64,000 nucleotides of DNA, from contig SLKG01000037.1 in the NCBI GenBank assembly GCA_007134735.1, positions 1 to 64,000 on the forward strand. The letters are read 5' to 3'. Shown here one piece after another: positions 20,686 to 23,845 of the stretch. The notes beneath the pieces are model-generated. The model was not told the DNA's origin. It ran no database searches and worked only from the letters and a program-made list of their open reading frames with translations. The DNA comes from Kiritimatiellia bacterium (lineage in GTDB: Bacteria; Verrucomicrobiota; Kiritimatiellia; SLAD01). Positions within the stretch are counted from its first letter, which is position 1. Every line of letters starts with the position of its first letter. Made by a program: the position numbers and the translations under genes.

Positions 20686-22767
20686 TCATTCCTCCGCCTC
20701 CAAATACCAGCTTTCCGCATAATAGGGTGTAGTCCATCGGTTATCCCAGCCCCAATACCCCCGCGTCGGGACATTGCGCAGCCGGGTGCTGACCACGAGA
20801 GGTTGGGGCGCGAGGCCCACGGTGCCGATGACCCACAGATTCTCCGCCTGGGCGCCCAGGATTTTTCTCCCCAGTTCGAGGCGGCGCTCCGGATCCATGC
20901 TCATTCGGAATTCCCGATACCAATCCAGAACCTGGCGGGCTTCCGGAATCGGTTCCTCCCCGCTTTCGCCGTCGGACCGATACCATTCGACCCAGAGCGG
21001 CCAGATGCTGACTTGCCAATCCCTCAAAATCGGAACAAACCAGATGGGCTCGGTCGTGAACAGAATGTCGGTAGTCCGGTCCGCGTGCCAGAGCGTGGCC
21101 TCCATCATATTGCCCACGGAACGCGAATGTTGAAGAGAGGCGCTGATTTCGCGCAGACTGACATGTATGCCGATATCGCGCCAATGGGCCGTCACCAGTT
21201 CCATGGTCTCCATCTTGGGTGTTTCCAGTGCCAGCCATTCCAGCGTGATGTTCAAGGGACGGCCATTGGGGCGGTTGCGGCGGCCGTCCCCGGTCTGATC
21301 GACCAGGCCCATTTCGTCCAGGAGCCGGTTGGCTTCCTCCGGGTCATAGTACGCATAAGCGCTCGCGAATTCCTCGTCGAAGAAGATGCTGGACGAACTG
21401 ACCGTCGCCTGGCGTGGGGTGGCCCGGCCGAAATAGATCACCTCGTTGATTTCATCGCGATCGATGGCGATGGACAGGGCCCGGCGGAATCGCACATCGC
21501 GGAAGATTTCCCGCAGCACCGGATCGGGCGTGGTCAGGTTGAACTGGAGTATCACGTCCGACGCGTGGAGGCGGTTCCAGATAAAGGTTTCGTGTTTGCC
21601 GGCCGTTTCACCGAGCTTGAACAACGGGATGTCCGATGTCCGTAATCGCATGCCTTCAACCGTGATTTCGCCCGTGCCGGCCCGCGCGGTGAGCACTTCC
21701 TCGTCCAGGTCCTTGTGCATTTCAAAACGATCGATATACGGCAACTGGCGTCCTTCCGGATCGACTTTCGGGTAGTAGGGATTGCGCTCGAAGACGTCCA
21801 CCTGCATGGTGATGGATTTGAGACGGAAAGGGGTAATGACCGGGGTGCCCAGCACTTCCCGGGAATGGCGGCCGCCGTACACGCTCCAGAAATAGCCGAT
21901 CCAGTCCTGGTAACCCAATTGCCGTGCCCGGGCGCGCAATTCCTGGCGCTCGACAAAGTCAACATGATGATGCTTGAGGAAGTGTCGCGGCGCCACGTAG
22001 CGCTCGCTGACATGCGCCAGGTGTTCCCGGATGAAGGGTTGCGGTGTTTCGAAACGGTACTGGAACGTGGTCTCATCGATTACAATGCACTCGGCCTCGT
22101 TCAAGGGAGCCGGTTGTATCGGCGTTAATTCTTCATTTCTAAAAACATGGTCAAAATAGAATTTGAAATCAGCGGACGTGTACGGGTGCCCGTCCGACCA
22201 TTTCAGCCCTTCGCGGAGCTTGATGGTGGCGACGCGCCCGTCTTCGCTCACCTCCACCGATTCGGCCAGATTGGGAATGGCGCGTCGGGATTCCGGCCCG
22301 ATGCGCAACAGGGATTCCGGTGGATTCAGAATCCAATGATCCACCACCGTGGCCGTGCCGCCGTATCGCCCGACACCTTCATAGGGATGAATGACAATGG
22401 GATCGACGGGCAGTCGCTCTTCCACGGGCGGCAGTTCTCCTCGCTCGACGAGTTCCTTGAGCATCGGCGCTTCCTGGAAGGCGGTAATGCCCATTTCCGA
22501 CGCCGTCCGGGGCGGCTTGAACCATTCCGCCGGCCATGAATCCGGGGGAATCGAGCCGTCCGGTTCCGTGGCGGGCATTGGGTCGGAACGGCGTTCAAAC
22601 TCCACGCGGGGCGGTTCGGCAACCCGGTCCAATAACCATCCCAGAAACCAGATAGCGGCGATCAACAGGATAATCGCTTGAACCGCACCGCGCATTCGTT
22701 CCCAGAGGGATTGTGAACCGCGTGGACCGACGGGTTTGCGTTTCTTCTTTTCTCGTTTCCTGAACAT
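20686..22767 (-). CDS. Membrane-anchored oligopeptide-binding protein (SBP family 5)
   Basis: About 693 residues. The N-terminus is strongly basic (MFRKREKKKRKPVGPRG) and followed by one helix (AVQAIILLIAAIWFLGWLLDR) with no lipobox, so it is probably an uncleaved anchor. The body matches SBP_bac_5: VATIKLREGLKWSDGHPYTSADFKFYFDHV, SIAIDRDEINEVIYFG, and the C-terminal SWYLEAEE. It would bind oligopeptides for OppB/C/D/F encoded immediately downstream. I start at 22767 (AAGGAAACG upstream); the longer frame runs through tRNA-Arg and tandem repeats and is spurious. An uncleaved anchor is unusual compared with secreted or lipoprotein OppA. Confidence 0.93.
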   Translation of the reverse strand: MFRKREKKKRKPVGPRGSQSLWERMRGAVQAIILLIAAIWFLGWLLDRVAEPPRVEFERRSDPMPATEPDGSIPPDSWPAEWFKPPRTASEMGITAFQEAPMLKELVERGELPPVEERLPVDPIVIHPYEGVGRYGGTATVVDHWILNPPESLLRIGPESRRAIPNLAESVEVSEDGRVATIKLREGLKWSDGHPYTSADFKFYFDHVFRNEELTPIQPAPLNEAECIVIDETTFQYRFETPQPFIREHLAHVSERYVAPRHFLKHHHVDFVERQELRARARQLGYQDWIGYFWSVYGGRHSREVLGTPVITPFRLKSITMQVDVFERNPYYPKVDPEGRQLPYIDRFEMHKDLDEEVLTARAGTGEITVEGMRLRTSDIPLFKLGETAGKHETFIWNRLHASDVILQFNLTTPDPVLREIFRDVRFRRALSIAIDRDEINEVIYFGRATPRQATVSSSSIFFDEEFASAYAYYDPEEANRLLDEMGLVDQTGDGRRNRPNGRPLNITLEWLALETPKMETMELVTAHWRDIGIHVSLREISASLQHSRSVGNMMEATLWHADRTTDILFTTEPIWFVPILRDWQVSIWPLWVEWYRSDGESGEEPIPEARQVLDWYREFRMSMDPERRLELGRKILGAQAENLWVIGTVGLAPQPLVVSTRLRNVPTRGYWGWDNRWTTPYYAESWYLEAEE

Positions 22768-22813
22768 GTAAGAACGTTTCCTTGCTGACAACCATCCGGC
22801 CGGCGCGCTCGAC

Positions 22814-22947
22814 TCGACAGGACCCCGCACATGCGGGGCAAGCTCGAACGCTGTTCTCGCCCTGTCTCGTGCTGGCGCACTCGACAGAACCCCGCACATG
22901 CGGGGCAAGCTCGAACGTTGTTCTCGCCCTGTCTCGTGCTGGCGCAC
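22814..22947. repeat. Two 67-bp tandem repeats seeded by the tRNA-Arg 3' end
   Basis: Two 67-bp units begin TCGACAGGACCCC (22814) and TCGACAGAACCCC (22881), and a third copy of the first 11 bases occurs inside tRNA-Arg at 22948. Each unit contains a CCCCGCACATGCGGGG hairpin, GCTCGAACG.TGTTCTCGCCCTGTCTCGTGC, and ends GGCGCAC, which is the tRNA acceptor/CCA end. They lie directly downstream of the tRNA and before the binding-protein gene. Confidence 0.85.
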
Positions 22948-23016
22948 TCGACAGGACTCGAACCTGTAACCCTCTGATCCGAAGTCAGATGCTCTATCCA
23001 ATTGAGCTACGAGTGC
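22940..23016 (-). tRNA. tRNA-Arg (anticodon TCG)
   Basis: A cloverleaf is readable on the minus strand: acceptor GCACTCG / CGAGTGC, D arm AGCTCAATTGGATAGAGC, anticodon stem TCTGA-CTTCGGA-TCAGA giving anticodon TCG (reads CGA arginine codons), and T arm with GGTTCGAGTCC. CCA is encoded (22940-22942). The 3' end is repeated downstream in tandem. Confidence 0.93.
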
Positions 23017-23152
23017 CTCAATACTCGGCCGTAGTATGATTTCCAGCGAATGCGATGTCAAATCGTGTTATCAATGTCTTTGCGCCCGTGCCGCCCCGGT
23101 TCCGGGGCGCGATGGCGCTCCCGCGGAGGGCCCAATTCTTTTCTCCGTGATC

Positions 23153-23845
23153 TTACCCGTTCGCCATCAAACACTTTTCCATCGCCGCGTGTAGTTCCCG
23201 CAGCGATTCGAATACCGGCACGCCACAGGCTCCCAGGCGGTCGCGGTGCTGATTCCCGGCCGCCACCAGTGCGCATTGAGCCCCCATGGCGCGCGCCACC
23301 TCGTAATCGTGTTCGGTGTCGCCGATCATCAGGATTTCCTTCGGGGCGTATCCGGTGGAGGCCGCCCACGCCCGGCCCTTGTCCAGTTTGCCCGCCGCGT
23401 AATGATCGTCATTGCCGATGACGTCATCGAAATAATGGCGTACGCCGAAATGTGCAAGCAGGGTTTCCAGCGTCTCGTGTTTATAGGCCGACAGAACCGA
23501 TTGACGTATTCCGGCGCGATATATCGCATCCAGGAGTTCCGTGGCATGGGGGTGTAATCCGCTTTCCAGTCGCCGCCGTTCGTATTCAAGAATGAATTCC
23601 GTGCCGACTTCCGCGAACGATTCCCGGGCCAGGTCCACGCCGGCCGCCCGGTAGAAGTTTTCGACCGGAAATCCGAATGTGTGCAGATAGCGGGCCATGG
23701 TCAATGCGGGCAATCCGCGCCGTTGCAACATGTTGTTGAACACATCGAGACACAACGCCGCGTCATCAAACAACGTACCGTTCCAGTCCCAGGCGATATG
23801 CCGGATCGGTGCGGCGAATGCGAATTTGGAATCGGTATCTTGCAT
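23153..23845 (-). CDS. HAD-superfamily hydrolase (phosphoglycolate-phosphatase-like)
   Basis: A 230-residue haloacid-dehalogenase-fold phosphatase. Motif I is DWNGTLFDD, where the usual DxDGT has Asn at the third position (D20 nucleophile, N22); this variant is common in Gph-like proteins. The last motif is MIGDTEHDYEVARAMGAQ. The cap region lies between. The likely substrate is a small phosphate ester, by similarity to phosphoglycolate phosphatases; the exact one is unknown. It lies divergent to the GH20 gene, 62 bases away, and its 3' end is about 135 bases from the tRNA-Arg gene. Confidence 0.88.
   Translation of the reverse strand: MQDTDSKFAFAAPIRHIAWDWNGTLFDDAALCLDVFNNMLQRRGLPALTMARYLHTFGFPVENFYRAAGVDLARESFAEVGTEFILEYERRRLESGLHPHATELLDAIYRAGIRQSVLSAYKHETLETLLAHFGVRHYFDDVIGNDDHYAAGKLDKGRAWAASTGYAPKEILMIGDTEHDYEVARAMGAQCALVAAGNQHRDRLGACGVPVFESLRELHAAMEKCLMANG

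Follow-up and report, generated by a model that had tools for sequence, protein, structure and literature searches.

Tandem hairpin-bearing pieces behind a bacterial tRNA-Arg gene look like vestiges of a poorly known family of selfish elements at tRNA genes

At the tyrT locus of Escherichia coli, 178-bp units, each with part of the tRNA 3′ end, are repeated in tandem downstream of the tRNA (the tyrT repeats, associated with RtT RNA). Homing elements of the Allomyces atp6 type keep a mitochondrial protein gene whole and carry a displaced 3′ piece of it behind the nuclease gene. Mitochondrial genomes are also invaded by double-hairpin and repetitive hairpin elements, as outlined in the part of that source drawn on here (PMC2800124). 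For tRNA genes, a precedent is SegB, a GIY-YIG enzyme of T-even phages which – according to the portion of the report used here – cuts inside tRNA genes, prefers the motif RAWTSGAAC and is required for a tRNA locus of phage T6 to become amplified in tandem (PMC13096335). The reverse complement of this motif, GTTCSAWTY, can be read as close to the T loop.

The locus considered here lies in a stretch of 64,000 nucleotides (the window) from a Kiritimatiellia bacterium, where an intact tRNA-Arg(tcg) gene is followed by two short repeats:

22940-23016, minus strand: intact tRNA-Arg(tcg) gene (ARAGORN; Rfam RF00005, 71.6 bits)
22957-22963, minus strand: T-loop heptamer GTTCGAG of the intact tRNA-Arg (from the sequence)
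22879-22945, minus strand: proximal 67-bp unit, of which 22940-22945 still belong to the tRNA, as its last 6 nt
22910-22916, minus strand: T-loop heptamer GTTCGAG of the proximal unit (from the sequence)
22890-22909, minus strand: 20-nt insert of the proximal unit, CTTG + CCCCGC-ATGT-GCGGGG, between tRNA positions 60 and 61; the same insert form occurs at tRNA-Asp
22812-22878, minus strand: distal 67-bp unit, its far end altered to GAGTCGAGCGCGCC in place of GAGTGCGCCA
22843-22849, minus strand: T-loop heptamer GTTCGAG of the distal unit (from the sequence)
22823-22842, minus strand: 20-nt insert of the distal unit, CTTG + CCCCGC-ATGT-GCGGGG, between tRNA positions 60 and 61

The two tandem repeats behind tRNA-Arg that a first-pass annotation had pointed out are real: they have a spacing of 67 and are 97% identical. 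Everything reads on the minus strand, so they follow the 3′ end of the tRNA, without a spacer. That annotation also had each unit end in the acceptor/CCA sequence, which holds for the proximal unit (ending GCGCCA) but not for the distal one. On the tRNA strand, each unit runs from GTTCGAG through CTTG and the hairpin CCCCGC-ATGT-GCGGGG to T(T/C)CTGTCGAGT; on the forward strand the hairpin reads CCCCGC-ACAT-GCGGGG, at 22823-22838 and 22890-22905. The units had been described as the T-arm/acceptor side of the tRNA, and GTTCGAG and TCCTGTCGAGTGCGCCA are indeed recognisable as such, but together they make up just ~24 of the 67 nt. The hairpin reported within them is present in both, not as a part of the tRNA end but as a precise T-arm insertion: the 20-nt insert separates GTTCGAG from TCCTGTCGAGTGCGCCA exactly at the 60/61 position. 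A 12-nt part of the unit, ACTCGACAGGAC, is found again within tRNA-Arg itself (22946-22957).

Because the proximal unit folds unusually well (-33.0 kcal/mol, z = -3.2, with a closing stem present) and its T-arm half recurs at the tRNA-Asp locus of the same genome (E = 1.5e-5 and 3.4e-4), the units are not a product of chance. Since the entire 67-bp unit is repeated, the hairpin was no longer considered a CRISPR feature. An Rfam scan of 22500-23300 returned the tRNA and two sub-threshold matches only, with RtT RNA absent up to E = 5. Of the flanking genes, three were tested: one encodes a solute-binding protein, one a HAD phosphatase and one a glycoside hydrolase, and no integrase is found among them; the first of these, a family 5 solute-binding protein gene (20686-22767, minus strand; PF00496, E 3.4e-60), starts ~45 bp behind the distal unit.

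A search for further copies, covering the flanks of about 45 tRNAs of the same genome, revealed hairpin-armed pieces at eight other tRNAs. Nine tRNAs in all – Arg-tcg, Asp, Pro-cgg, Pro-ggg, Leu-taa, Tyr, Asn, Met and Val – are scarred in this way, with partial copies on the same strand whose arms, in all nine loci, bear GC-rich palindromes at defined positions. Upstream copies start at the first bases of the tRNA and break off at an arm, being nearly whole at Asp and Pro-cgg, while downstream copies are 3′ parts of the tRNA. The tRNA-Asp locus holds two broken tRNA-Asp copies with hairpins on both sides of GTTCGAG, one of which also has hairpins on both sides of the D-arm sequence GTTAGAG. 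Tandem 3′ arrays resembling that of the window, and likewise nuclease-less, are found at tRNA-Val (six 30-bp units) and tRNA-Met. Within this genome, the core AAGTTNNAGCTTGNCCC occurs at 0 or 1 mismatch in broken tRNA copies only (Asp three times, Pro-ggg, Pro-cgg and the proximal unit of the window), and the distal unit differs from it by 2 mismatches; the genome has 24 CCCGCC-GGCGGG hairpins, many of them in tRNA pieces and several elsewhere. At tRNA-Met and tRNA-Val of this genome (L084, L116), inverted repeats around the intact tRNA lengthen the acceptor stem (ccccgcagg..aaggtggtg / ccaccacctttcctctgcgggg).

Three of the scarred loci of this genome – Asp, Tyr and Leu-taa – also contain small GIY-YIG genes. 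All four non-UvrC GIY-YIG matches of the genome lie at scarred tRNAs, as does a cut-off fifth at tRNA-Asp; the remaining match, a 506-aa frame, is taken for UvrC. Six of the nine scarred tRNAs have no adjoining nuclease, and tRNA-Arg is one of them: a whole-genome PF01541 search gave nothing on the window's contig. The small ORFs (~80-100 aa) match the GIY-YIG catalytic domain (PF01541, E 1e-8 to 4e-14), with Y, Y-x-G, R, H and E as invariant alignment columns, and no DNA-binding domain was found beside the catalytic one. The SegB protein is longer.

In the full version of the arrangement, an intact tRNA is accompanied by a small same-strand GIY-YIG gene and by an incomplete copy of that tRNA, extending to the CCA end from an anticodon arm or a T arm. 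Some loci add 5′ tRNA pieces upstream, and many of the incomplete copies have palindrome-bearing arms. In relative G267, the order of intact tRNA, GIY-YIG gene and tRNA 3′ piece is found at tRNA-Ser, Gly, Asp and Met, with tRNA-Ser versions also in relatives G215, G056 and G175 (inserts of another form are present at tRNA-Ser in G056 and G215). Behind tRNA-Leu(taa) of relative G228 there are about seven near-identical ~379-bp units, each comprising the nuclease gene, a hairpin-armed anticodon arm and a tRNA 3′ half. A tRNA piece of at least 11-13 nt was not seen at many of the relatives' nuclease loci, above all in the Pro/Ala/Val clade. Some loci (L128, L133, L144, L229) have a palindromic spacer (e.g. 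gccttcgctcgc...gcgagcgaaggc) directly after the tRNA CCA, ahead of the GIY-YIG gene, and in others (L123, L132, L219, L225, L227) the order is reversed, with the gene just upstream of the tRNA on the same strand. GIY-YIG genes by tRNA-Ser were also observed in other phyla, in Ligilactobacillus ruminis DSM 20403 (L230) and a Proteobacteria MAG (L229).

Across the class, the nuclease genes are associated with tRNAs. The cleanest figure comes from the best-scoring 30 loci among 116 class genomes, which have a tRNA in 24 cases. In a wider pool – a non-random draw with non-independent tandem copies, assembled from six chosen genomes, the 30 loci of best matches in the 116 genomes, 20 regions picked from the same match list (partly for tandem copies or long contigs) and one G196 locus – a tRNA lies within the fetched locus for 55 of 74 distinct ORFs, on the same strand in 55 of 55 cases, and the ORF mostly lies 10-270 bp past the tRNA 3′ end; with such a pool, calculated probabilities overstate the association. 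A second class, that of G196, with no genomes from the window's class, has a tRNA at 15 of 29 loci, all on the same strand. In eleven genomes reached via other loci, all 8 matches scoring over 51 bits lie by a tRNA and none of the 10 lower-scoring ones does, with the cut noticed post hoc.

On the nuclease tree, which has 79 columns and few resolved forks, tRNA isotype is clustered (24 changes versus 39.8 on average after shuffling; 0 of 200 shuffles), near-copies adding to the clustering. Nuclease lineages for Asp, Leu-taa, Pro, Thr and Met each span more than one host family; those of Ala and Val show no isotype clustering. The nuclease genes are under purifying selection, with pairwise dN/dS of 0.04-0.16 in those diverged pairs that allowed a computation; the value for two young Asp copies is 0.57, based on few changes.

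Among the relatives, the units of the window have a narrow distribution. The tRNA-Arg query matched in 32 of the 38 genomes searched (the window's genome included), and no 67-bp-type unit is present in the 29 relatives' loci read from these matches, 17 of which hold tRNA-Arg(tcg) and which include a member of the same family, G212. The possibility that the repeats are an old duplication fixed in all relatives can thus be set aside. A strict 23-mer pattern, run over 195 genomes of the phylum, matches only the window's genome. Twelve GTDB matches to AAGTTCGAGCTTGNCCCGC were obtained, two of which, in Lentisphaerae records (L030, L033), adjoin tRNAs; the other ten are taken as chance, since their flanks have no hairpin arms and eight of the loci have no tRNA.

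In the known examples, the palindromes are almost completely paired. In two hand-compiled alignments of armed arms (8 and 12 sequences, chosen for their hairpins and including related copies), 100% and 98.8% of stem cells are paired; 13 and 17 cells, respectively, are changed on both sides and none on one side only, and there is no G-U pair in 259 cells. That G-U pairs are absent speaks for palindromes at the DNA level, or for copying from arm to arm, more than for selection on an RNA. In G267, dispersed repeats with paired hairpins of the same form flanking a 7-nt centre (TGTAGCGGCG...CGCCGCTACA; L074-L077) lie away from tRNA genes.

On balance, we think it somewhat probable that the units of the window represent the downstream half of chromosomal, tRNA-targeting, homing-type elements, copied without the GIY-YIG nuclease that characterises this family. 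The locus would belong to this family by the resemblance of its units, not by full anatomy, as tRNA-Arg has neither a GIY-YIG gene nor a 5′ tRNA piece upstream. The SegB precedent and the T-loop motif – the intact T-loop region of the window, GACTCGAAC, agrees with GTTCSAWTY at 8 of 9 positions, and the insert breaks the motif – suggest how such elements may work. The nuclease would cut tRNA genes close to a motif of the T loop or anticodon loop, and the break would be repaired from an element-bearing copy, so that an intact tRNA is supplied and the old one left as pieces. Inserted palindromes might shield these pieces from renewed cutting or recombination, and further breaks, or unequal recombination between pieces, could produce tandem arrays. 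The short array at tRNA-Arg would then be what is left after loss of the nuclease gene, unless that gene was never there. It is only tentatively that we propose the mechanism in its entirety, in which isotype-specific GIY-YIG nucleases split tRNA genes as their way of spreading, supply an intact copy and tag the leftovers with loop palindromes, which would serve as immunity tags or recombination sites and start tandem arrays. Points against the preferred reading, besides the missing nuclease gene and 5′ piece at tRNA-Arg, are the six scarred tRNAs without an adjoining nuclease, the relatives' nuclease loci without a tRNA piece or with inserts of another form, the small size of the ORFs with no DNA-binding domain found, and the lack of an account of why the intact tRNA of a cell with the nuclease is not itself cut.

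Other origins of the units deserve consideration. Replication slippage that simply duplicated the tRNA 3′ end in tandem, with a hairpin arisen by chance or acquired once beforehand, would suit units that are tandem, short and adjacent; the six tRNA-Val units resemble slippage products, and the tyrT repeats, too, contain part of a tRNA 3′ end. We nevertheless regard it as unlikely, given the same insert form at the same tRNA position at tRNA-Asp, the similar debris at eight other tRNAs and, for a tyrT-like origin, the lack of an RtT match in Rfam. Independent palindromic elements (REP-, RPE- or RHE-like) might instead have entered spare tRNA pieces, the link to the nuclease being a separate matter; this, too, seems rather unlikely. 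In its favour, the hairpins are perfect palindromes with varied stems and loops, the same paired-hairpin form is found in the non-tRNA repeats of G267, and hairpin elements that invade mitochondrial genomes have been described, as far as the part of the source used here goes (PMC2800124). Yet cores with at most 1 mismatch occur, in this genome, in tRNA pieces alone and at defined positions – several CCCGCC hairpins elsewhere notwithstanding – and hairpins also occur within the nuclease units of another family, that of G228.

That the units are transcribed and processed as functional small tRNA-like RNAs is improbable. The alternative frame of the proximal unit (22873-22939), which starts with GCAC at the base right after the tRNA and ends GCGCCA, and its stable, closed fold would be in keeping with such a role, but the distal unit has no CCA end, the units are not seen in relatives, and the 30 two-sided and 0 one-sided changes without G-U pairs in related armed pieces are unlike RNA selection. 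Least credible, and very improbable in our view, are remnant attachment sites of a tyrosine-integrase island: although tRNA 3′ ends are common integration sites and 3′-end copies do lie downstream of the tRNA, precise T-arm hairpin inserts are foreign to the integrase mechanism. The first-pass annotation noted that tRNA 3′ ends are usual integration targets, but a tyrosine-integrase attachment site, the usual sense of this, is not supported: the three neighbouring genes tested are ordinary, and it is a small GIY-YIG nuclease gene that accompanies such units elsewhere. Its idea of repeated recombination, or of a small element copying the tRNA end, fits the similar units at eight other tRNAs and in relatives, so that its interpretation as a whole is partly supported.

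Compared with the described systems, the nuclease-dependent reading departs from each in some respect. The tyrT units, though also tandem, downstream and carrying part of a 3′ end, are longer and have no armed T arm. The atp6 element shares the whole host gene and the 3′ piece displaced behind a nuclease gene, but concerns a mitochondrial protein gene rather than tRNA genes, arrays and hairpins. Tyrosine-integrase islands likewise repeat a tRNA 3′ end downstream, but here the repeated arm has hairpins inside and the flanking genes include no integrase. SegB is similar as a GIY-YIG nuclease by tRNA genes, in a motif resembling the T-loop complement and in tandem amplification, yet belongs to phages and, in the portion of the source used, comes with no description of hairpin-armed tRNA pieces (PMC13096335), whereas here bacterial chromosomes and isotype-specific lineages are involved. 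The mitochondrial hairpin elements resemble the present ones in their short paired hairpins, as far as the source drawn on describes them (PMC2800124), but here these occupy defined positions in tRNA pieces and are linked to GIY-YIG genes.

A description of chromosomal GIY-YIG/tRNA arrays was not found in the literature searched, a scope that excluded most subscription papers. If the preferred reading is true, tRNA-targeting GIY-YIG homing would extend from phages to bacterial chromosomes of at least two classes, and tandem repeats of tRNA ends, which tend to be overlooked, would have an explanation; a clear test system would be at hand in related bacteria, some of which have units at a given tRNA and some of which do not. 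Perfect palindromes without G-U pairs also raise the question of how hairpins come to be installed in the DNA of gene remnants and stay faultless there. Near tRNA-Pro genes (L103, L014), there is, in addition, a dispersed repeat, GGCTCAGC(A/G)GGAGCTTCGCCCTCC.
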